From positions 1 to 21,321 of IMG/VR virus record IMGVR_UViG_3300007541_009081: DNA of 21,321 bases; one strand, written 5' to 3'. The translations under genes were made by a program, and so were the position numbers. Numbering within the stretch: position 1 is the first letter of the stretch; each line of letters opens with the position of its first letter. Below, in pieces: positions 7,785 through 17,649 of the stretch. A model generated the notes under the pieces. That model was given only the letters and a program-made list of their open reading frames with translations. It ran no database searches and was not told where the DNA came from. The stretch comes from a virus.

Positions 7785-8288
7785 ATGATTATAGGTAATG
7801 GTAGCATTGCTCGAGTATTAGAAGATAGAGATGATTTAGTATTTTTCGCTTCAGGAGTTAGTAATAGCTCTTGTAAAGATGAAAGCGAATATCAACGTGA
7901 GTTAAACTTACTTAAAACAGTCCCTACAGATCAACATGTAGTGTATTTTTCTAATTTAGGAATTTACTATAAAGAAGATCGTTATACTCAACATAAAATA
8001 GATATGGAAGAGTATATTAGAACTCATTATAAAAGTTATACTATAGTTAGAATTGAAGTTTGTGAATGGGTTACTACCCCTCATACTATACTAAACTTTT
8101 TTAAAACCCAATTAAACCAAGGTATTGAACCCACAATCCAGGATACTACTAGATATGTTTTAAGTGTAGACGAGTTTATCTATTGGATTAAAATGATTAA
8201 GTCTGGAGTAAAAAATGAAATGAACATTCTAGGAAGAAAAATGACTATTGCTGAGATAGTAGAAGCTATAAAGCAAAATAAGTTATGA
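7785..8288 (+). CDS. Miniature SDR-like (sugar epimerase/reductase-like) protein
   Basis: This is a 167-residue protein, about half the length of an extended short-chain dehydrogenase. It starts with a nucleotide-binding loop 'IIGNGSIAR', has 'HVVYFSNLGIYY' (strand 5 with a serine at the usual catalytic place) and a Y67-x3-K71 pair ('YTQHK'), then a C-terminal helix 'TIAEIVEAI' like the last helix of UDP-sugar epimerases. The stretch between the first strand and the serine strand is severely shortened, so part of the Rossmann fold is missing. It could be a sugar reductase reduced to essentials, or a subunit. It overlaps the next gene as ATGA. Confidence 0.55.
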   Translation: MIIGNGSIARVLEDRDDLVFFASGVSNSSCKDESEYQRELNLLKTVPTDQHVVYFSNLGIYYKEDRYTQHKIDMEEYIRTHYKSYTIVRIEVCEWVTTPHTILNFFKTQLNQGIEPTIQDTTRYVLSVDEFIYWIKMIKSGVKNEMNILGRKMTIAEIVEAIKQNKL

Positions 8289-9205
8289 TAAAAATTAAAT
8301 TATTTTACCTTATTATGCCTTGGCAAATTGATTATGCCTTGCTTTCTTATACTCAATTTAAAAAATCAAAATATTATCTTCCTAAAGATGTTGAAATAAC
8401 TATTGATACTCATCTTAATTTATCTAATTATTTAATTGATTGGGATAATAGTAAATTACCTAAAGAGTTTTTTATTAAAAAATATAATGATTTAGCTATT
8501 CTTTTAAAAGATTATAAACATAATTCCATAGTATATGATGGAGATGAAAATTATGGTCTTTTAGATATGCAAAAACAAGCATATGGAGATGAATTTGATT
8601 ATTACATCTCAGTTTGCCCTGATATGTACTTTAGTGAGACTGCTTTATATTCTTTAATTGAGGCAGCTAAAATAATTAAAAATGATTATTTTGTAATTAC
8701 TCCTGAAATTTCTAAAATGTGGGATTGGACTTGGGATGAAATAACTAATAAAAAATATCTAAACGTACCTTATAATGATTGGGATAAAGCTGATATTTTT
8801 GATATTAGGTATGATTTAAAATCTTCTAATGAGGATATTTACTTAGATCCTGTTTCTAAAAGTAAATTTGCAATATGGTTTGATCTTTATAGTAAATCAT
8901 TTTATGAAAACTTATGCCGTGTGCATGATGATTGGACTGGATATGGTCCTTGGGATTGGTATTCAATGATGCTTTCTGATCACGTTAAAAGTTTAGGAGT
9001 AGATTACCAACAATACATTTTAAGAGGACAAACTATATTTGAATATTCAATTGGCCCTTTAAAAGATAGAGGTTATACTGAATATTATAAAGATTTTCTT
9101 AAAATTAAAATAGGAGCTAAAGAACAAAGAGACAAATTTGAAGCAAGAATGAATGAATATCTAAATAAAGGTGTACAAATGATTAAAAACCAAAATATTA
9201 TATGA
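8285..9205 (+). CDS. Putative GT-A-type glycosyltransferase
   Basis: This is a 306-residue, very AT-rich gene. The N-terminus 'IKLFYLIMPWQIDYALLSYTQFKKSKYYL' is consistent with a GT-A Rossmann start, and 'DYYISVCPDMYFSETALYSLI' (~100-121) sits where a DxD-like 'D-(x)-D' strand is expected. 'DDWTGYGPWDWYSMMLSDH' (~217-235) resembles the acidic/aromatic loop in which GT-A enzymes place the catalytic base and acceptor site. No transmembrane helix is visible. The call rests on pattern and context between other glycosyltransferases; I cannot place it in a named CAZy family. It overlaps its neighbours by four bases on each side. Confidence 0.5.
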   Translation: MIKIKLFYLIMPWQIDYALLSYTQFKKSKYYLPKDVEITIDTHLNLSNYLIDWDNSKLPKEFFIKKYNDLAILLKDYKHNSIVYDGDENYGLLDMQKQAYGDEFDYYISVCPDMYFSETALYSLIEAAKIIKNDYFVITPEISKMWDWTWDEITNKKYLNVPYNDWDKADIFDIRYDLKSSNEDIYLDPVSKSKFAIWFDLYSKSFYENLCRVHDDWTGYGPWDWYSMMLSDHVKSLGVDYQQYILRGQTIFEYSIGPLKDRGYTEYYKDFLKIKIGAKEQRDKFEARMNEYLNKGVQMIKNQNII

Positions 9206-9600
9206 GAAAATATCTTCCAACACTAAGTGAACTAGTTGATCGTTTATCAATCGTCCAACTTAAAGAAGTATTCATCCCAGAACATAAAGATGAATATGCC
9301 CAAGAAATTGCTGATATTACACACGATATTCAAATGTTATTAGATGAACAAGATGGTAAAGTAACAGCTGAAACAATTAGAGCTATCGTGGTATTATCGC
9401 AGATGAATCTTCATATATGGCACAACGAATCTAATTATCGTAAGGGCATTAAAGACGGAAATAACCTGGAATTAACACATGGTTTAAATGGTATTCGCAA
9501 TACAGCTAAAAATAGAATTCAAGAAGTTGTAGGCGGAAGAAAAGATTATAAAATCGATTGTTTAGCAGCCGAGTTTAAAGACTGGGAAATTAGTTGGTAA
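9202..9600 (+). CDS. DUF4254-like small helical protein of glycan clusters
   Basis: This is a 132-residue helical protein. 'TLSELVDRLSIVQLKE' at the start and 'LNGIRNTAKNRIQE' near the end, with 'NLHIWHNES' between, recall the pattern of small DUF4254-type proteins ('ELIDRLxIxxLKxWHxE ... NxxRNxxxxxI') that occur beside glycosyltransferase genes. Function is unknown in that family. Base composition differs sharply from the adjacent gene: line 9241-9300 has 21 G/C of 60, against 8 of 60 at 8461-8520. It could be an accessory or chaperone-like protein for glycan synthesis, but this is context only. Its stop overlaps the next start as TAATG. Confidence 0.45.
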   Translation: MRKYLPTLSELVDRLSIVQLKEVFIPEHKDEYAQEIADITHDIQMLLDEQDGKVTAETIRAIVVLSQMNLHIWHNESNYRKGIKDGNNLELTHGLNGIRNTAKNRIQEVVGGRKDYKIDCLAAEFKDWEISW

Positions 9601-10484
9601 TGGAAATATTTGCTAATTTTAGAGATATTAATACTGATCCTTACTTACTTTATATTAAAGCAAAGTATGGAGACAAACCTATTACTTTTTGGTATGATAA
9701 ATTACCTACATCTCTTAATGAGCTAAATATAAACCCTTATAATTTTTTATTTTTACATGAACCTGATGAGTTTTTTGGTTTACATTCTTATGCTTCTCGA
9801 ACCCACTCCCAATTTACAGCTATATTAACTTGGAATGATAAATTATTAAGTAATTTATCTAATGCTGTAAATTTTACTTACAGTGGCCAAACTTTAGATA
9901 ATGATTATATTAATTCACTAAGTAAAAAAGAATTTAATATTTCATTTTTATGTGGAACTAAATCTTCTGTTGAAGGACACAAATTACGACATAGTGTTTA
10001 TTCTTTAGAGTCTAAAATTCAAATTCCTAAAAAATGGTTTTATGTTTTAGATGATTATGACCATAAAACTAATACCAGACCTGGTTATACTGAATATTCT
10101 AGAGACCTATCCCACATTCCAGAAGGTATTGATCCTATTAGTTATGGCCGAAGAGTTTTATTTGATGATTCAATGTTTAACATCGTAATTGAGAATGTTA
10201 AATATAATAATTGGTATAATAAGATTGGGGATGCGTTTGTAACTAAAACTATCCCATTATATTGGGGTTGCCCTAATATTAGTGAATTTGGTTATGATGA
10301 AAAAGGAATTATTAGATTTAACACCAAAGAAGAATTATTAGATATAATAAATAATCTAACCCCAGAAAAATATAATGAAATGCTTCCATATATTGAATAT
10401 AATTATGAATTAGCACTTCAAGACACATTTGAAAACAACATCAGTCAATTTTTTGATAATATTTTTGAACTTAATAATATATGA
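9600..10484 (+). CDS. GT10-like (alpha-1,3-fucosyltransferase-like) glycosyltransferase
   Basis: This is a 294-residue protein starting at the ATG in TAATG; a TTG six bases earlier is also open. The C-terminal third contains 'FNIVIENVKYNN' (E198) followed by 'DAFVTKTIPLYWGCPNI' and 'FNTKEELLDIINNL', which correspond to the GT10 signature (E-N-x...-T-(E)-K-x...-P-V-x-x-G) of bacterial and animal fucosyltransferases. The N-terminal domain is less conserved, as expected for acceptor binding. GT10 enzymes use GDP-fucose or related GDP-sugars, which fits the GDP-mannose dehydratase gene downstream. The Glu usually before Lys in 'TEK' is absent ('VTK'). The next gene starts as ATGA. Confidence 0.7.
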   Translation: MEIFANFRDINTDPYLLYIKAKYGDKPITFWYDKLPTSLNELNINPYNFLFLHEPDEFFGLHSYASRTHSQFTAILTWNDKLLSNLSNAVNFTYSGQTLDNDYINSLSKKEFNISFLCGTKSSVEGHKLRHSVYSLESKIQIPKKWFYVLDDYDHKTNTRPGYTEYSRDLSHIPEGIDPISYGRRVLFDDSMFNIVIENVKYNNWYNKIGDAFVTKTIPLYWGCPNISEFGYDEKGIIRFNTKEELLDIINNLTPEKYNEMLPYIEYNYELALQDTFENNISQFFDNIFELNNI

Positions 10485-10957
10485 TATTTCCAGAAGTAAG
10501 AATCTATCAACCAGATTCATTTGAAGATTTTAGAGGTGAATTATATACCTTATTTAAACAAGATGATCATGAATTAGTTTTTAACCATGATAAAGTATCT
10601 ATTTCGCGCAAACATGTGTTAAGAGGATTACACGGTGATTCTAAATCATGGAAATATATTTCTTGTTTAGCAGGTGAAGTATTATTAGTAGTAGTTGATA
10701 ATCGTCCTGAATCTAAAAACTATTTAAAATGGGATTCTATTGTTTTATCCTCTAAAAATAAGAAAGCAGTTTTAATCCCACCTATGTTTGCTAATGGTCA
10801 TTTTGTTTTAAGTGATGAAGCAACATTCTTCTACAAATGGGCTTACCAAGGATCATATCCAGATGTTCAAGATCAATTTACATTAAAATGGAATGATCCC
10901 CGTATAGGAATTCACTGGCCTGTTTCTAATCCTATTTTATCTAAACGTGACGCTTAA
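10481..10957 (+). CDS. RmlC-like 3,5-epimerase (cupin)
   Basis: This is a 158-residue cupin. The order of motifs is that of dTDP-4-dehydrorhamnose 3,5-epimerase: 'FRGEL', then 'RGLHGD' with the catalytic base H51, 'GEVLLVVVDNR', 'IPPMFANGHFVLSDEA', 'FYKWAYQGSY' and a final 'W-N-D-P-R-I-G-I-H-W-P' with 'ILSKRD'. The protein is a little shorter than RmlC (~180 aa). The usual 'GFAHGF' is replaced by 'MFANGHF', so one His is shifted; relatives acting on other keto-sugars may share this. It would epimerise C3 and/or C5 of a 4-keto-6-deoxy sugar. Its donor could be dTDP- or GDP-linked; with the Gmd-like enzyme nearby, GDP is possible. Confidence 0.75.
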   Translation: MIFPEVRIYQPDSFEDFRGELYTLFKQDDHELVFNHDKVSISRKHVLRGLHGDSKSWKYISCLAGEVLLVVVDNRPESKNYLKWDSIVLSSKNKKAVLIPPMFANGHFVLSDEATFFYKWAYQGSYPDVQDQFTLKWNDPRIGIHWPVSNPILSKRDA

Positions 10958-10981
10958 AAGTTTTTTTATTATATTAATGTT

Positions 10982-11608
10982 ATGAATATACCCAGACACT
11001 ATACTAAAGTTCGCGACGTAAACATTACGCCTGAAGAACTAATTGCATTCGAAGATCGAGTAAAGGATGCATATGAAAATGCCAAGGTAAAAGGACCAGT
11101 GCATTTATCTAAAAATAACGAAGAACAACTTATTGAATTGTTTCAATACATCCACAAAGATGATTGGGTACTTTCAGCTTGGAGAAATCATTACCATGCC
11201 CTATTACACGGTGTAGACCCAGAAAAATTATTTTCATGGATTAGTGAAGGTAGAAGTATGGGCACAAATAATCTTAAACCTAACTTTTATGCTTCATCTA
11301 TTGTAGGTGGTATTATTCCTCTTTCTTTAGGCATTGCTGCTGGTTTAAAGCGTTCTAATTCACCTCGTCGTGTATGGTGTTTTGTAGGTGATATGACAAT
11401 GGAAACTGGTGTATTCCATGAAGCCTACAAATATTCTCAAAACTTCAATCTACCACTTCAATTTGTAGTTGAAGATAATAATTTGAGTGTTCACACACCC
11501 ACTGATTTAGCTTGGGGTAAGCGTATGGACGTTCCTGAAAATGTTATTTATTATCAATATAAAATGTCTTACCCCCACCACGGAACAGGCAAATGGGTTA
11601 ATTTCTAA
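10982..11608 (+). CDS. TPP-dependent enzyme, PP-domain subunit (E1-alpha/transketolase-N-like)
   Basis: This is a 208-residue protein matching the pyrophosphate-binding half of thiamine-diphosphate enzymes. 'YHALLHGVDPEKLFSWISEGRSMG' and 'ASSIVGGIIPLSLGIAAGLK' are E1-alpha-like. The TPP/Mg site runs from G136-D137 ('VGDMTMETGVFHEA') to D165-N166-N167 ('VEDNNLSVHTPT'). It ends soon after, with 'YPHHGTGK', whereas E1-alpha proteins are ~330 residues or more. Its partner, the pyrimidine domain, is encoded immediately downstream with a 3-base gap, so the two should form one active site. In glycan clusters such pairs are expected to move a two-carbon unit to a keto-sugar. Preceded by a 24-base AT-rich gap. 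Confidence 0.8.
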   Translation: MNIPRHYTKVRDVNITPEELIAFEDRVKDAYENAKVKGPVHLSKNNEEQLIELFQYIHKDDWVLSAWRNHYHALLHGVDPEKLFSWISEGRSMGTNNLKPNFYASSIVGGIIPLSLGIAAGLKRSNSPRRVWCFVGDMTMETGVFHEAYKYSQNFNLPLQFVVEDNNLSVHTPTDLAWGKRMDVPENVIYYQYKMSYPHHGTGKWVNF

Positions 11609-11611
11609 ATT

Positions 11612-12142
11612 ATGGGTTACAAAAACGAATTAGACAGAGCAATGGAATGGCTTGCTTCAAAGCCAGATACCGTATTTACAGGACAAGCTATTGGAATGAG
11701 CGGACACGCTATTTCAAATACAATGGTTAATGTCCCACAAGACAAACGAGTTGAATTACCCGTATTTGAAGAAACCCAATTGGGAATGGCTACAGGTATG
11801 GCATTAACAGGTTGGGTACCCATTACTTGTTACCCACGATTTGATTTCTTTATTTTATCACTTAACCAATTGGTTAATCATTTAGACAAAATGCAAGACA
11901 TGTCTAAAGGTGAAATGAAACCTAAAGTTATTATTCGTGTAGCTGTAGGTTCTAAAGTACCATTTAGTGCAGGTCCCCAACATACTCAAAACCATACTGA
12001 AGCAATGCGTAAAATGCTTACTGAAGTAGAAGTTGTTGAATTAATGGAACCAGAAGAAATCTTTCCAGCATTTGAAAAAGCATATAATAGTGATAAATCA
12101 ACCTTAATTATTGAACACAGCGAGTTTTATGGCAGCAAATAA
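11612..12142 (+). CDS. TPP-dependent enzyme, Pyr-domain subunit (E1-beta/transketolase-like)
   Basis: This is a 176-residue protein matching only the pyrimidine-binding domain of E1-beta/transketolase proteins. 'VFEETQLGMATGMAL' holds the Glu (E53 or E54) that contacts the aminopyrimidine ring of TPP. 'YPRFDFFILSLNQLVNHLDKM' and 'GPQHTQNHTEAMRKML' are the following E1-beta blocks. The C-terminal transketolase_C domain, normally another ~130 residues, is missing altogether. It begins 3 bases after the PP-domain subunit and overlaps the ColD-like gene by 14 bases. The pair would be a minimal heteromeric TPP enzyme. The ketol donor is not evident from sequence. Confidence 0.8.
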   Translation: MGYKNELDRAMEWLASKPDTVFTGQAIGMSGHAISNTMVNVPQDKRVELPVFEETQLGMATGMALTGWVPITCYPRFDFFILSLNQLVNHLDKMQDMSKGEMKPKVIIRVAVGSKVPFSAGPQHTQNHTEAMRKMLTEVEVVELMEPEEIFPAFEKAYNSDKSTLIIEHSEFYGSK

Positions 12143-13301
12143 TTTTACATGGCCTCTTATTAATGATAATATCACCCAAGGTGATAGAGAAATCCTAGCT
12201 GATTTCTGTTTAAATGGTGAACGTTTTACTAACGGACCTAAAGTTAAAGAATTTGAAAGTATATGGTCTGAATGGTTAGGTGTAAATCATTCTGTAATGG
12301 TTAACTCTGGTGCTTCAGCTAACTATATTTCTATTGCTATGGTAAAAGAATTAGTAGGTGAAGGTGAAATAATTGTACCCCCAATTGGTTGGGTTAGCGA
12401 CATATCTTCAGTTGTTCAATTAGGAATGACCCCTGTATTTGTAGATGTATCACTTAGTGATTTTAACATTACTTCTAGAAACATTAAGGATGCTATTACT
12501 CCTAAAACCAAAGCAATTGTATTAGTACATACACTAGGATTCCCAGCAATTAATGATGAAATTATTCAAATTGCTAAAGATAATAATTTAATTCTAATTG
12601 AGGATTGTTGTGAAGCTCATGGTGCTACTTACAATGGTAAACGTGTAGGTTCATTTGGTGATATTTCATTGTTCTCATTTTATTTTGGTCATCATATTAC
12701 TACTATTGAAGGAGGAATGGTTTGTACAAACAACCCAGGCCTATATGATTTAGCTAAACTATTCCGCTCACATGGAATGACACGAGAAGCTTCTTTAGGA
12801 TTACAAGAACTTTATCAAAATGTTTATCCTGATTTAAATCCATTATTTACTTTTGCAGTAGCTGGATTTAACATGCGTTCAACTGAGCTAAATGCTGTTT
12901 TGGGTATTGAACAAATGAAACGTTTAGATTACAATATAAAATGTAGGCAAGATAATTTAGATACTTGGTTAAGTAATCTTAACCCTGCAATGTTTATTAC
13001 TAGATTTAATATTCAAGGTAATAGCAATTTTGCTTTACCTTTAATGATGCAAGGAGCTACTATAAATAAATTAAAAGAAGTTTGCCGTATTTTAGAAGAA
13101 GAAGGAGTAGAATATCGTTTAGGTACAGCAGGAGGTGGAAACCAATCTCGTCAACCTTATTTAAAAAAATTCCCACACCGTATAAATGGAACATTAGTAC
13201 AAGCTGATTATATCCATAAAAATGCTCTTTATGTAGGTAACCATCCTGAATTAACTGAAGAACAAATTATTAATCTTTGTAAAAAATTAAATAATGTTTA
13301 A
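12129..13301 (+). CDS. ColD/RfbH-like PLP-dependent sugar 3-dehydratase
   Basis: This is a 390-residue protein with the DegT/DnrJ/EryC1/StrS fold: 'NGERFTNGPKVKEFES', 'MVNSGASANY' (phosphate loop), 'IEDCCEAHGATY' (Asp that pairs with the PLP nitrogen) and 'SFYFGHHITTIEGGM'. In true aminotransferases the residue after 'SFxxx' is the Schiff-base Lys; here it is His (H188). That replacement defines the dehydratases ColD (GDP-4-keto-6-deoxymannose 3-dehydratase, also with an active-site His188) and E1/RfbH (CDP-sugar). It should deoxygenate C3 of a 4-keto-6-deoxy sugar using PLP and glutamate. Length and the absence of an RfbH [2Fe-2S] cysteine cluster favour ColD. A TTG 18 bases upstream is a weaker start. 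Confidence 0.78.
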   Translation: MAANNFTWPLINDNITQGDREILADFCLNGERFTNGPKVKEFESIWSEWLGVNHSVMVNSGASANYISIAMVKELVGEGEIIVPPIGWVSDISSVVQLGMTPVFVDVSLSDFNITSRNIKDAITPKTKAIVLVHTLGFPAINDEIIQIAKDNNLILIEDCCEAHGATYNGKRVGSFGDISLFSFYFGHHITTIEGGMVCTNNPGLYDLAKLFRSHGMTREASLGLQELYQNVYPDLNPLFTFAVAGFNMRSTELNAVLGIEQMKRLDYNIKCRQDNLDTWLSNLNPAMFITRFNIQGNSNFALPLMMQGATINKLKEVCRILEEEGVEYRLGTAGGGNQSRQPYLKKFPHRINGTLVQADYIHKNALYVGNHPELTEEQIINLCKKLNNV

Positions 13302-14265
13302 TAACCAAAAAGTTTTAGTAACTGGGGGCGGTGGTATGATTGGCCGTTCACTAGTTAAATTCCTCCTAGAAAAAGGAGCCCAAGTTACAATTGCTGACCT
13401 TACTGAACCCTCAGACTTACCTAAAGGTGTAGGCTATGTTAAAGCTGATTTGCGTTATTTTGATCAATGTGAAGCTATTTGTAATGGTCAAGATTATGTT
13501 TTTAACTTAGTAGGTGTTAAAGGATCACCTAAAATGTGTGCTGAACAACCAGCTGATTTTATGGTTCCAATGCTTCAATTTAATACAAACATGATGGAAG
13601 CTGCTCGTAGAGCAAATGTAAAATGGTATCTGTATACAAGCTCAGTTGGTGTTTATGCGCCTGCAGAAGTATTTGTTGAAGATAGCGTTTGGAAAACTGT
13701 TCCATCCCCAAATGATCGTTTTGCTGGTTGGGCTAAGCGTATGGGCGAATTACAAGCCGAAGCATATGCTATTCAATATGGTTTGAATAATGTTTCTATT
13801 GTTCGTCCTGCTAACGTTTATGGTAACTACGATAACTTCAACCCAGCGAACGCAATGGTAGTTCCTTCACTTATTCGTAAAGCACAAGAAAATGATGTGC
13901 TTGAAGTTTGGGGTGATGGTTCAACAATTCGTGATTTTATTCATGCTGATGATGTTGCTTTAGGAATGTTGTTTGCTGTTGAAAATAAAATTACCCAACC
14001 AATTAACTTAGGTTCAGGTAAAGGTTATTCAATCAAAGAAGTAGTTGACATGGTAGTTAAACATTCAGGTAAAGATCTTGAAGTAAAATGGCTAACAGAT
14101 AAACCCGGCGGTGATGCTATTCGTTTATTTGATATGACTCGAGCTAGATCTTATGGATTTGATATTTCAGTATCATTAGAAGAGGGCATTCAACGAACTA
14201 CAGAATGGTTTATGAATAATAAAGAAATTTTAGATAAACGTTATAATGCATTTGTAGATCACTAA
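13294..14265 (+). CDS. Extended SDR, NAD-dependent sugar epimerase/dehydratase-like, lacking catalytic Tyr
   Basis: This is a 323-residue extended short-chain dehydrogenase. 'VLVTGGGGMIGRSLV' is the NAD(P)-binding loop, 'YTSSVGVY' carries the Ser, 'RPANVYGNYDNF' and 'WGDGSTIRDFIHADDVA' are substrate-binding signatures shared with GDP-fucose synthase/epimerase-type proteins. The Y-x3-K site reads A144-G-W-A-K148: the Lys is present but the usual acid/base Tyr is Ala. It may still bind NAD(P) and sugar, or use a different acid/base. It is a paralogue of the protein at 14956, which has the reciprocal change. It overlaps ColD by 8 bases and its stop is TAATG with the next start. Confidence 0.78.
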   Translation: MFNNQKVLVTGGGGMIGRSLVKFLLEKGAQVTIADLTEPSDLPKGVGYVKADLRYFDQCEAICNGQDYVFNLVGVKGSPKMCAEQPADFMVPMLQFNTNMMEAARRANVKWYLYTSSVGVYAPAEVFVEDSVWKTVPSPNDRFAGWAKRMGELQAEAYAIQYGLNNVSIVRPANVYGNYDNFNPANAMVVPSLIRKAQENDVLEVWGDGSTIRDFIHADDVALGMLFAVENKITQPINLGSGKGYSIKEVVDMVVKHSGKDLEVKWLTDKPGGDAIRLFDMTRARSYGFDISVSLEEGIQRTTEWFMNNKEILDKRYNAFVDH

Positions 14266-14963
14266 TGGCAGAGTATTTAATTTCAGGAAATAAAAGTGGA
14301 TTAGGTAAGTATTTAAATGATAATTTACCTGATTCCCTTGGTTTTGGGAGAAATGAATTAAATCTAGTTAAAAGAGAAGATTTTAATACAATTATTCATT
14401 GTGCCTTTAATAAAGAACAATACCAAATTCAAGATTATTACAAATATTTACAAGACAATATTTTTCTAACTCAAGATCTTTTAAATTTAAGTCATCATAA
14501 GTTTGTTTATATTTCAACAGTAGATGTTTATCAAGACAATCCTAATTATTATGGGTTATTTAAACGATTTGCAGAATCGATTGTAGAAAAAAATCCAAAT
14601 GCTCTTATTTTAAGATGTTCTATGATGTTAGGTCCTGATATGAAGCCTAACCATGTTACTAAATTAAAAGATAATGTAGATAAATTAGGTTTATCTAGTG
14701 ATTCTACTTTTAATTATATCTTAATGAGTGATATTCTTGAATTTTTTTCTAGTGGTGACTATTTAGAATACAGTGGAGTAGTTGATTTTATTTCAAATGA
14801 AGTAATTAAATTGTCTCAAGTAAAATCTTATTTTAATTCTACCACAGAACTAGGAAATTATACTTATGAATCTTATAATTTATATTCAATGTTTCCAATT
14901 TATACTCTAAATAAAAAATATAATAAATCATCTCTAAAAAATTTAAAAACATATTATGAATAA
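14265..14963 (+). CDS. Short SDR-type sugar reductase-like protein
   Basis: This is a 232-residue protein with a G-x3-G-x-G nucleotide loop ('ISGNKSGLGKYL'), 'IIHCAF' (strand 4), 'VYISTVDVY' with the Ser/Thr site, and Y96-x3-K100 ('YGLFK'), so its catalytic residues look complete. 'LILRCSMMLGP' corresponds to the substrate-binding strand. The C-terminal substrate domain is shorter than in typical 300-residue extended SDRs. It would fit a 4-keto-sugar reductase (RmlD/GDP-keto-sugar reductase-like). The gene is visibly more AT-rich than its SDR neighbours on both sides, which suggests a separate origin. It starts by TAATG coupling and overlaps the next gene by 8 bases. Confidence 0.65.
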   Translation: MAEYLISGNKSGLGKYLNDNLPDSLGFGRNELNLVKREDFNTIIHCAFNKEQYQIQDYYKYLQDNIFLTQDLLNLSHHKFVYISTVDVYQDNPNYYGLFKRFAESIVEKNPNALILRCSMMLGPDMKPNHVTKLKDNVDKLGLSSDSTFNYILMSDILEFFSSGDYLEYSGVVDFISNEVIKLSQVKSYFNSTTELGNYTYESYNLYSMFPIYTLNKKYNKSSLKNLKTYYE

Positions 14964-15912
14964 TTTCTTTAAAGACAAATTAGTAGTAGTCACAGGAGGT
15001 AGTGGTTTTATTGGAACCCATTATCTTAAGGCTTTAGTAGAAAAAGGAGCAAAAGTTAGAACGTATGTTCATGAAACACCTCTTCAATATACCCATGAAA
15101 ATATTGAAGTTTTAGATTATATTAATCTAAATAATTTAGAAGATTGCCTTCGCCTTACAGAAGGGGCAGACTATGTAATACATTCAGGAGGTAAAATTGC
15201 TCACCCATCAACAGTTCCTACCGATATTCAAATATCTATGCAGAATATTATGGTATTAGGAAATATTTTAGATGCATCACAACGTAATGGAGTAAAACGT
15301 TTCCTTGATTTAAATAGCTCCACAGGTTATCCTGATCGTAGATATCCTATTAAAGAAGAAGAATTTTGGGATGAAGAACCATTTGCTAAGTATTTTGGTT
15401 ATGGTTGGATGCGTCGCTATAGAGAAAAACTTATGGAACACGTTTATAAATTCTCAGGAATGGAAATTATGTTAGGCCGTGGAACCGCTATTTATGGTCC
15501 TTATGATAACTTTGATCCTAAAACATGTCACGTTGTTCCTGCTCTTATTAAACGAGTTTTAGATGATGAAAATCCTTTTATTGTTTGGGGCACTTCTGAT
15601 GTAGTTCGTGATTTTCTTTATGTTAAAGATGTAGTTAAAGCATGTTTACTTATTTTAGAAAAAGGTGAACCTATGCGTCCTTATAATGTTGGTTCTGGAA
15701 TCGCTCTTACAGTAGGTGATATTGTAGAAGCTGTTCTTAAAGCTACAGGTAAAACTCCTGAAGTAGTTTGGGATGAGACTAAACCAACAACTATTCCATT
15801 TAGAATGGCTAGCACAGAGCGTATCCAAAGCGAATTAGGATTTGAACCTACTTACACATTTGAAGAAGGTATCAAAGAAACAGTTGAATGGTATATTGCA
15901 AATAAGCTTTAA
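14956..15912 (+). CDS. Extended SDR, sugar epimerase/dehydratase-like, lacking catalytic Lys
   Basis: This is a 318-residue extended SDR. 'VVVTGGSGFIGTHYL' is the NAD(P)-binding loop; 'LDLNSSTGYP' supplies the Ser; 'RGTAIYGPYDNFDP' and 'WGTSDVVRDFLYVKDVV' match the paralogue at 13294 in the same order. The active-site motif is Y149-G-W-M-R153: Tyr is present but Lys is replaced by Arg. Further on, 'YNVGSGIALTVGDIV' and 'GFEPTYTFEEGIKETVEWY' are the family's usual C-terminal blocks. It might be an epimerase or reductase acting on the GDP-4-keto sugars made by neighbours. The next gene begins one base after its stop (TAATATG). Confidence 0.78.
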   Translation: MNNFFKDKLVVVTGGSGFIGTHYLKALVEKGAKVRTYVHETPLQYTHENIEVLDYINLNNLEDCLRLTEGADYVIHSGGKIAHPSTVPTDIQISMQNIMVLGNILDASQRNGVKRFLDLNSSTGYPDRRYPIKEEEFWDEEPFAKYFGYGWMRRYREKLMEHVYKFSGMEIMLGRGTAIYGPYDNFDPKTCHVVPALIKRVLDDENPFIVWGTSDVVRDFLYVKDVVKACLLILEKGEPMRPYNVGSGIALTVGDIVEAVLKATGKTPEVVWDETKPTTIPFRMASTERIQSELGFEPTYTFEEGIKETVEWYIANKL

Positions 15913-15913
15913 T

Positions 15914-16921
15914 ATGAATGCATTTATTACGGGTATAACAGGGATGGTAGGAAGTCATTTAACAGACTACCTCCTTAAAAATACAGATTGGAAAATTTAT
16001 GGGTTTGCTCGTTGGTATGATTCATTAGATAATCTTGAGCATTTAGTAAGTGAAATTGATAAAAAAGATCGTATTGAACTTATTTATGGTGATTTAAATG
16101 ATTTACCTTCATTAAGTAAAGCAATAGATAAAGCAAAACCTAATTATGTTTTTCATTTAGCTGCTCAATCTTATCCTATGCCTAGTTTTGATGCGCCTAT
16201 AGAAACTCTCCAAACAAATATATTGGGAACCGCTAATTTATTAGAGGCATTGCGTAATTCCGCGTATAAAAACGCTATAACGCATGTATGTGCATCGAGT
16301 GAGGTATTTGGCCGTGTTCCTAAAGAAAAATTACCAATTAATGAAGAATGTGGTTTCCACCCAGCTTCACCTTATGCTATATCTAAGGTTGGAACTGATT
16401 TAGTAGGTCGTTATTATGCCGAGGCATATGGAATGACTATTATGACTACTCGTATGTTTACTCATACAGGCCCTAGACGAGGCGATGTATTCTCAGAATC
16501 AACATTCGCTAAACAAATTGCTATGATTGAAGCTGGCTTACAAGAACCTAAAATTTATGTAGGTAATTTAGAATCACTTCGTACTTATGCTGATGTTAGA
16601 GATGCTGTAAAAGCTTATTATATGTTAGTTACTCATAATCCTATTGCAGGTGAGTATTACAATATTGGTGGTACTTATACTTGTAAAATTGTTGATATGC
16701 TTAACTATTTAATCAGCCAGTCTACAGTAGATAATATTGAGGTTGTAATTGATCCTGAGCGTTTGCGTCCAATTGATGCTGATTTACAAGTACCTGATAC
16801 TACTAAATTCCAAAACCATACAGGTTGGAAACCAGAATATACTTTTGAACAAACTATGAATGATCTCCTCCAATACTGGAGAGACAGAGTAAGCTCAGGA
16901 CGTAAATTTTTAAGACGATGA
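15914..16921 (+). CDS. GDP-mannose 4,6-dehydratase-like protein
   Basis: This is a 335-residue protein starting at the ATG one base after the previous stop; an earlier in-frame start would overlap that gene. Family marks are 'FITGITGMVGSHL', 'HLAAQSYP', 'SSEVFG' (S129, E130 in the 4,6-dehydratase site), Y154-x3-K158 ('YAISK'), 'RMFTHTGPRRGDVF', and 'VGNLESLRTYADVRDAV', then 'DPERLRPIDADLQVPDTTKF'. These agree with Gmd, which converts GDP-mannose to GDP-4-keto-6-deoxymannose using bound NADP. It is a bit shorter than bacterial Gmd (~345-375 aa). A GDP-manno-heptose dehydratase (DmhA-type) is an alternative. The stop overlaps the next start as ATGA. Confidence 0.78.
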   Translation: MNAFITGITGMVGSHLTDYLLKNTDWKIYGFARWYDSLDNLEHLVSEIDKKDRIELIYGDLNDLPSLSKAIDKAKPNYVFHLAAQSYPMPSFDAPIETLQTNILGTANLLEALRNSAYKNAITHVCASSEVFGRVPKEKLPINEECGFHPASPYAISKVGTDLVGRYYAEAYGMTIMTTRMFTHTGPRRGDVFSESTFAKQIAMIEAGLQEPKIYVGNLESLRTYADVRDAVKAYYMLVTHNPIAGEYYNIGGTYTCKIVDMLNYLISQSTVDNIEVVIDPERLRPIDADLQVPDTTKFQNHTGWKPEYTFEQTMNDLLQYWRDRVSSGRKFLRR

Positions 16922-17649
16922 AAATATTAGTTATAGGAGATAGTTGTACAGATATTTTTAGATATGGTAAAGTAGAAAGAATAGCCCCAGAAGCACCTGT
17001 ACCCATTATCGTACCTGAAAGAGAAACATCTAACCCTGGTATGGCAGGTAATGTAGTAGCTAATCTAAAAGCTTTAGGAGCTGAAGTGGATTTTGTTACT
17101 AATAAAACTGAAATTCGTAAAATAAGATATGTTTGTTCTAAGTATAATCATTTACTTTTAAGAGTAGATGAAAATGATAAATGTGAACAAATTGATTCTA
17201 CTTATCTCCCTGAAGAAGAGTATAACGCTATTGTAATCTCAGACTACTGTAAAGGATTTTTGTCTGAAAATGATATTGAATTTATTACTCAAAATACATC
17301 AATTCCTACATTTTTAGATACTAAAAAAATATTAGGTGAATGGGCTCATTATGTTGATTTTATTAAAATTAATTATCATGAGTATGAACGTAACTTAGAG
17401 ATATTACTTAATGATAGTATTCTTCAAAATAAAACCATAGTTACAAGAGGTAAATACGGTTGTGACTACCAAGGTAAAAATTATCCAACCCAAGAAGTAC
17501 CTGTAAAAGATGTTTCAGGTGCTGGAGATACATTTTTAGCTGGATTAGTAGTAGAATATGCTCGTTCTAATGATATAGATAAAGCAATTAAGTTTGCTCA
17601 AGAATGTACAACTATAGTAGTCCAAAAATCAGGGGTATCAACAATATGA
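16918..17649 (+). CDS. PfkB-family kinase, HldE/RfaE domain-I-like (heptose kinase-like), shortened
   Basis: This is a 243-residue protein. 'ILVIGDSCTDIFRYGKVERIAPEAPVPI' followed by 'PGMAGNVVANLKALGAEV' is close to the start of D-glycero-beta-D-manno-heptose-7-phosphate kinase (RfaE/HldE domain I). 'AIVISDYCKGF' and 'DVSGAGDTFLAGL' (catalytic D204 in G-A-G-D) are the other PfkB motifs. The family is normally ~310-330 residues: the stretch after 'LGAEVDFVT' that includes 'GxDxxG' and part of the lid is missing, and the chain continues at once with 'KTEIRKIRYV'. The ATP site seems intact, while sugar specificity may differ. No adenylyltransferase domain is fused. The stop overlaps the next gene as ATGA. 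Confidence 0.72.
   Translation: MKILVIGDSCTDIFRYGKVERIAPEAPVPIIVPERETSNPGMAGNVVANLKALGAEVDFVTNKTEIRKIRYVCSKYNHLLLRVDENDKCEQIDSTYLPEEEYNAIVISDYCKGFLSENDIEFITQNTSIPTFLDTKKILGEWAHYVDFIKINYHEYERNLEILLNDSILQNKTIVTRGKYGCDYQGKNYPTQEVPVKDVSGAGDTFLAGLVVEYARSNDIDKAIKFAQECTTIVVQKSGVSTI

Follow-up and report, generated by a model that had tools for sequence, protein, structure and literature searches.

The window analysed in this study, the whole 21,321-base stretch of IMG/VR virus record IMGVR_UViG_3300007541_009081, carries a nine-gene cassette that probably makes a GDP-linked, carbon-branched 3,6-dideoxy-heptose. We put the probability of this reading at roughly 0.6, and we infer the substrate, donor, branch position, stereochemistry and use of the sugar from sequence comparison. 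The cassette encodes, in order, an RmlC-like epimerase, the alpha and beta subunits of a thiamine diphosphate (ThDP) enzyme, a ColD-like dehydratase, a short-chain dehydrogenase/reductase (SDR1), a short SDR, SDR2, a 4,6-dehydratase and an HldE-like PfkB kinase. All nine genes share one strand (plus), and neighbors overlap or almost touch. The same cassette was found again in dozens of IMG/VR contigs; ThDP and catalytic residues were kept in every cassette homolog that the motif scan could read. A chance neighborhood of these genes was ruled out by the conservation of the arrangement across the contigs. The initial annotation, made from this sequence alone, had placed the Gmd-like, RmlC-like, ColD-like (His in place of Lys) and two-subunit ThDP proteins and three SDRs back to back at 10481–16921, and these families were confirmed there in one orientation. 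The operon continues beyond that interval, however, with the kinase gene (16918–17649), which had been missed. The proposed GDP-linked branched deoxy sugar was upheld as a 3,6-dideoxy-4-keto sugar that is probably branched by the ThDP enzyme, but its GDP-mannose/colitose base was not.

The 4,6-dehydratase (335 aa, 15914–16921) points to a heptose base. Its best solved relative is the Campylobacter jejuni GDP-D-glycero-D-manno-heptose 4,6-dehydratase 7us5 (359 bits, 52% identity), whereas Escherichia coli Gmd (1db3) reached only 148 bits and 34% identity. The protein also failed the curated gmd model TIGR01472 (185.8 bits versus a cut-off of 415). Among the cassette homologs of the dehydratase, 7us5 was the best of three references for all 136 of 136, and the catalytic set is present in the window protein (S128/S129/E130 and Y154...K158). 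The earlier label "Gmd-like" is therefore right for the fold and wrong for the nearest characterised enzyme. The listed start of the gene (15842) is probably too early, and 15914 fits the homologs. The best solved relatives of the RmlC-like protein (158 aa, 10481–10957; PF00908, 1.4e-39) are the C. jejuni GDP-4-keto-heptose epimerases 7ang, 7an4, 7m14 and 8db5 (about 157–162 bits); RmlC 1dzr scored 89 bits, far below them, and the curated rmlC model TIGR01221 gave 111.8 bits against a cut-off of 155.75. His51 and Tyr118/122 stand at catalytic positions, as read by eye. By homology, this protein is likely a C5 (or C3/C5) epimerase acting on GDP-4-keto-heptose.

The kinase (243 aa, 16918–17649; NCBIfam rfaE_dom_I, 135 bits, sub-cut-off) resembles the N-terminal, heptose-7-phosphate kinase domain of HldE; it is shortened but keeps the GAGD motif. 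It falls in phrog_8133, whose function is listed as unknown, and is widespread in these cassettes. Bacterial relatives of the cassette also carry heptose genes. A surface-sugar cluster of the SAR11 order (L204) contains GmhA and HddA homologs together with the dehydratase, the ColD-like enzyme, the ThDP pair and SDR1, and in other bacterial relatives the ThDP pair adjoins HddA-like and HddC-like genes. From the dehydratase, the epimerase, the kinase and these bacterial loci, we infer that GDP-heptose is the base sugar.

The ColD-like protein (390 aa, 12129–13301) has ColD (PDB 2gms, 4.5e-56) as its nearest solved structure. His188 replaces the lysine that binds pyridoxal phosphate (PLP), and the HH motif was found in all 86 of the 86 homologs read, being invariant in alignment A2. 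The protein is predicted to be a PLP-dependent C3-dehydratase acting on a GDP-4-keto-6-deoxy sugar, from which it would take the C3 hydroxyl. Its listed TTG start at 12111 is probably spurious and too early; the start at 12129 fits the homologs.

The ThDP enzyme is of a mini-E1 kind, referred to here as type A. Its alpha subunit (208 aa, 10982–11608; E1_dh, 5.4e-13) provides the PP domain with the ThDP motif GDM136...EDNN164, and its PDB profile match is the pyruvate dehydrogenase (PDH) E1-alpha subunit (2.2e-19); every one of the 54 type A alpha sequences read has the GDM...EDN motif. The beta subunit (176 aa, 11612–12142; Transket_pyr, 7.8e-10) matches PDH E1-beta structures and has the activating Glu53, and the Glu motif was kept in homologs where it was read. 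It is unusually short, consisting of the Pyr domain with no C-terminal transketolase domain. The pair thus has the domains and motifs of the E1-type (aKADH2) enzymes, namely an alpha PP and a beta Pyr domain, GD(x)n(E)DN and the activating Glu, but lacks the C-terminal transketolase domain that the aKADH2 beta subunit has. It is not a single TPP_enzyme_N/M/C chain of the YerE kind, having E1_dh and Transket_pyr instead. The fold was checked on L091, a natural alpha-beta fusion from Prochlorococcus (model pLDDT 86, pTM 0.88), which matched E1-beta with a Z of 21.9 over 168 residues and transketolases with a Z of about 21 over about 355; the top Foldseek rows were transketolase and DXS. The E1/transketolase-like description given initially is borne out by these domains, motifs and fold. 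The fold was dropped as a pointer to the donor, as the model matches E1-beta and transketolases equally. The comparison of loci described below gives strong indirect support to carbon branching, and the window pair probably branches a sugar ketone.

Co-occurrence of these families in other phages, which the initial annotation had suggested as a check, was then surveyed. When IMG/VR was scanned with the ColD and ThDP proteins, 87 unique ColD loci were recovered, most of them from phages and a few from bacteria (e.g., L086 and L088). Of the 87 loci, 82 have a ThDP enzyme nearby, at a distance from ColD of no more than 300 bases in 50 cases and of no more than 10 kb in the others. For comparison, relatives of the alpha subunit occurred in just 10 of 50,697 named phage records. 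The ThDP enzymes fall into four kinds: the type A mini-E1 pair (52 loci), a full-length E1 pair with DJ-1, cupin and usually HAD-like neighbors (type B, 18), an acetolactate-synthase/YerE-like chain (type C, 8) and a split transketolase (type D, 1, in L171, in the same slot); types A and C occur together in a further 3. The ColD tree requires at least 15 switches between ThDP kinds. Ketones are known to be accepted by just three ThDP superfamilies, namely decarboxylases (YerE and ErwE), E1-type aKADH2 pairs and transketolases, the last only proposed (2025 review, PMC12247030); all three are represented among the ColD loci. An unrelated passenger role of the ThDP gene is unlikely, given the swaps between unrelated kinds and the co-segregation of SDRs described below. 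The five loci without a ThDP gene comprise two contigs that start at or close 5' of ColD (L158 and L161), contigs of about 22–24 kb (L075 and L051/L129), and L135, which has the dehydratase and ColD but no ThDP gene within 10 kb.

Type C was first met in L070, where the slot of the window enzyme is taken by a single chain of 611 aa that has the TPP_enzyme N, M and C domains. The gene order there is a PanB-like hydroxymethyltransferase, the type C chain, a B12 radical SAM protein and ColD, and a PanB-like enzyme usually accompanies type C. By analogy, the PanB-like enzyme could supply a hydroxylated 2-oxoacid donor; ErwE reportedly prefers hydroxylated 2-oxoacids. The combination of type C, PanB-like and B12 radical SAM proteins was seen in phage sugar cassettes at L070:3648-7989 and in L173–L190, and this set resembles an ErwE-type route by which a longer, hydroxylated branch would be made. 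In L160, L162 and L176/L189, the mini-E1 pair and a type C enzyme with PanB are both present, which suggests two branched sugars or two branching steps. Asp seems to take the place of the expected activating Glu in the full-length type B E1-beta subunit (e.g., L028:7091-8005), judging by the 7 of 18 sequences that were read.

The three SDRs tell more about the order of the pathway. SDR1 (323 aa, 13294–14265) and SDR2 (318 aa, 14956–15912) are GDP-fucose-synthase-like but fail the curated Fcl model (NCBIfam GDPFucSynFcl, 148 and 140 bits, respectively, versus a cut-off of 500); the short SDR between them (232 aa, 14265–14963) has a weak Epimerase match. Changes between types A and B were counted on trees of the same 55 loci, of which the RmlC tree holds 45 and the PfkB tree 34. 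The fewest changes required were 1 for SDR1 and 2 for SDR2, against 8 for ColD, 10 for the dehydratase, 11 for RmlC and 9 for PfkB; shuffled labels gave about 10 to 12.5. In the strictly syntenic subset, SDR1 proteins share 83% identity inside a type and no more than 68% across types, and the nearest neighbor has the same type in 40 of 40 cases for SDR1 and 38 of 38 for SDR2. ColD proteins of that subset reach 97% identity across types, and the nearest neighbor shares the type in 32 of 42. The window-type short SDR was found in 20 of 29 type A and in none of 14 type B syntenic loci, while another short SDR is confined to type B. Simple linkage fails to explain the tracking by SDR1, because the ThDP genes and SDR1 are separated by ColD. 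Physical linkage was rejected as the cause on the ground that neither RmlC, mostly a neighbor of the ThDP genes, nor ColD, their neighbor in the syntenic subset, tracks the type. By this co-segregation, SDR1 is likely to act on the branched product. We favor a reading in which a shared base module (dehydratase, ColD, epimerase and kinase) is joined to an exchangeable module (ThDP enzyme and SDRs): since the SDRs follow the ThDP kind and the base genes do not, a shared keto-dideoxy-heptose would be made first, followed by exchangeable branching and then by matched reductases.

In the proposed pathway, the ColD-like enzyme would strip the C3 hydroxyl to give GDP-3,6-dideoxy-4-keto-heptose, and the RmlC-like enzyme would be able to invert C5. 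The ThDP pair would then attach a carbanion-type acyl unit to the ring ketone and so form a tertiary alcohol; the likeliest unit is a two-carbon acetyl group from pyruvate, and the likeliest site is C4. SDR1 and/or SDR2 may reduce the branch ketone or otherwise complete the branched product, which the adjoining glycosyltransferases would use. Across this group of aquatic, T4-like phages, the ThDP step and its matching SDRs would be swapped on the common base pathway, so that a different sugar is made. There is about an even chance that these loci form a serotype-like modular system, in which a constant GDP-3,6-dideoxy-4-keto-heptose route combines with four ThDP kinds and matched reductases to give unreported GDP-linked C-branched sugars of at least nine carbons, varying a phage or host-surface glycan.

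Several observations weigh against this proposal. The genes gmhA, hddA and hddC are absent among the window genes scanned. In 24 longer related phage records, none of which was rated 90% complete, GmhA was found in 0, HddA in 1 and HddC-like proteins in 2. The phages mostly lack genes for GDP-heptose supply, and therefore the host must make GDP-heptose. The phage kinase is of the HldE type, which belongs to the beta/ADP-heptose route and not to the alpha/GDP route. The ThDP gene does not directly adjoin ColD in 32 of the 82 loci, and the same alpha family also occurs without ColD, for example in cyanophages and Prochlorococcus, so the family is not bound to this acceptor everywhere. Finally, the two SDR1 groups are only 64% identical and may be too diverged to recombine, which could keep SDR1 with its ThDP type for reasons other than function.

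The alternative that survives best, although we consider it unlikely, is an unbranched GDP-3,6-dideoxy-heptose like those of the C. jejuni HS:5 and HS:11 serotypes, with SDR1 or SDR2 as the C4-reductase; the ThDP enzyme would make a separate small molecule or modify another sugar of the same glycan. The dehydratase, C3-dehydratase, epimerase and a C4-reductase-like SDR are all present and are sufficient for that product (PMC10440746), and phage L135 has the first two with no ThDP gene near them. However, the presence of a ThDP enzyme at nearly all ColD loci, as four mutually replaceable kinds suited to ketone carboligation, argues for branching. If SDR1 and SDR2 simply reduced a common 4-keto intermediate, one would not expect their type to go with the ThDP kind instead of with the type of ColD or of the dehydratase.

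It is less probable still that the base is GDP-mannose and the product a GDP-linked, yersiniose-like (colitose-type) branched hexose. The likeness to Gmd and ColD at the level of fold would fit this, and GDP-mannose is common in bacteria, while most of the longer phage records yielded no GDP-heptose supply genes. Both the dehydratase and the epimerase nevertheless stand clearly closer to GDP-heptose enzymes, the former scoring less than half the gmd cut-off. Control phages provided a second line of evidence. Cyanophages ACG-2014f and S-CAM7 carry a true Gmd (72% and 68% identity to E. coli Gmd) with a His-type ColD-like enzyme and an Fcl-like SDR, the logic of colitose synthesis, and none of the four ThDP kinds was found within about 10 kb of their Gmd/ColD genes. 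The PDB comparison and this control led us to reject the GDP-mannose/colitose base as the most likely one. The remaining alternative, that the ThDP enzyme is a transketolase-like supplier of a heptose precursor such as sedoheptulose 7-phosphate, acting before the nucleotide sugar is formed, would suit the modelled transketolase-like fold, the co-occurrence of heptose genes (PfkB/HldE-like, GmhA, HddA and HldE) in phages and bacteria and the split transketolase in the slot of L171, but it is very improbable in view of the transketolase already present in cells, the acetolactate-synthase-type and E1-type enzymes that the slot also takes, the co-variation of the SDRs, but not of the dehydratase and kinase, with the ThDP kind, and a beta subunit without a C-terminal domain.

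Relatives of the ThDP enzyme were also seen outside ColD loci. In L003 (S-SM2), L002 (P-TIM68) and L091 (Prochlorococcus), a fused alpha-beta protein lies beside a Zn-alcohol dehydrogenase and heptose-activation genes with no ColD nearby; these loci perhaps perform the same chemistry on an oxidised heptose. A mini ThDP pair stands among radical SAM genes in L090, L092 and L093, which are deltaproteobacterial, Desulfobacterales and Nanoarchaeota metagenome-assembled genomes. The 735-kb uncultured phage LR756501 (L004) encodes mini ThDP alpha and beta subunits as well.

The surroundings of the cassette were compared with those of other phages. T4-like clamp-loader genes lie at the left end of the window. 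The window also shares with Flavobacterium phage immuto a run of genes in the same order (42–59% identity), for a nuclease, two glycosyltransferases, a small protein and a GT2 protein; Microcystis phage Mel-JY01 is a somewhat more distant match to this nuclease-glycosyltransferase block. The stretch between this block and the next conserved one varies among these phages, and the cassette of the window sits there. For the genes at 8285–9205, 9202–9600 and 9600–10484, Pfam and PHROG searches gave no family. The 132-aa protein of 9202–9600 accompanies most cassettes and is strongly conserved (about 76–100% identity). The open reading frame at 9600–10484, directly 5' of the cassette, has a GT10 fucosyltransferase-like motif by eye only, with no family model matching, and its product is a candidate user of the sugar. 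No Shine-Dalgarno-like motif was seen upstream of the nine cassette starts (10481–17649), which are preceded by A/T-rich sequence as in Bacteroidetes; this fits the kinship of the window with a Flavobacterium phage.

Sugars with a carbon branch are rare and difficult to obtain by chemistry, and there is a demand for biocatalysts among the ThDP enzymes able to attack isolated ketones. A recent review notes no solved structures for ketone users of the E1 and transketolase types (PMC12247030). The phages described here may offer many compact natural examples with matched reductases in a common background, which would make donor and acceptor rules comparable. Swapping the sugar-branching enzyme in a fixed cassette suggests strong selection for glycan change, possibly on the virion or the infected cell, and the exchangeable ThDP step resembles how bacteria vary their surface antigens. 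The pattern of shared and swapped genes makes the pathway order a testable prediction.

Among known systems, the closest pathway precedent is that of C. jejuni HS:5 rather than colitose. In HS:5, a 4,6-dehydratase, a PLP-dependent C3-dehydratase, a C5-epimerase and a C4-reductase turn GDP-heptose into GDP-3,6-dideoxy-heptose, and the C3-dehydratase is 62–67% identical to ColD-type enzymes (PMC10440746). The phage core has homologs of each first step of HS:5 and HS:11, the ColD-like protein and the SDRs being matched by family. It differs in being phage-borne, in its added two-subunit ThDP enzyme and extra SDRs, in having no gmhA, hddA or hddC, and in a ColD homolog that is only moderately similar to ColD. 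The colitose pathway (Gmd, ColD and ColC) shares the ColD-like dehydratase with His for Lys, but the window cassette lacks a true Gmd, and the phages that combine a true Gmd with a ColD-like enzyme lack a ThDP enzyme nearby.

For the branching step, the initial annotation had argued that an enzyme that is E1-like and not YerE-like may make a new product. By itself this argument is not sufficient, because C-branching of keto sugars in antibiotics is already known from two-subunit enzymes of the E1 type (aKADH2; PMC12247030, PMC4753412). AviB1/B2, Pau11/12 and KbDH-alpha/beta share with the window pair the PP and Pyr subunits, the ThDP motifs and a keto-deoxy-sugar as the expected acceptor, and Pau7, which reduces the acetyl branch after an AviB1/2-type enzyme acts (PMC4753412), is a precedent for reduction of the branch as the later step. 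The known enzymes, however, serve actinomycete secondary metabolites, whereas the phage beta subunit has a Pyr domain alone and a GDP-heptose derivative is the probable acceptor. Yersiniose and erwiniose synthesis (YerE and ErwE) follows the same logic of 4,6-dehydratase, 3-dehydratase, ThDP carboligation at the ketone and branch reduction, and sister phages (L070 and others) hold an acetolactate-synthase-type enzyme at the place of the window pair; YerE, though, is a single-chain flavoprotein acting on a CDP-hexose, while the window enzyme is E1-like and its carrier probably GDP. In the literature, of which our coverage was partial, no report was found of this combination, of a GDP-heptose-derived branched sugar or of C-branched sugars made by phages. 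Thus, every element is known from the C. jejuni dideoxy-heptose route, E1-type branching and YerE branching, and the combination is unreported in the literature covered; the novelty of the product, if any, would come from its heptose base and GDP carrier.

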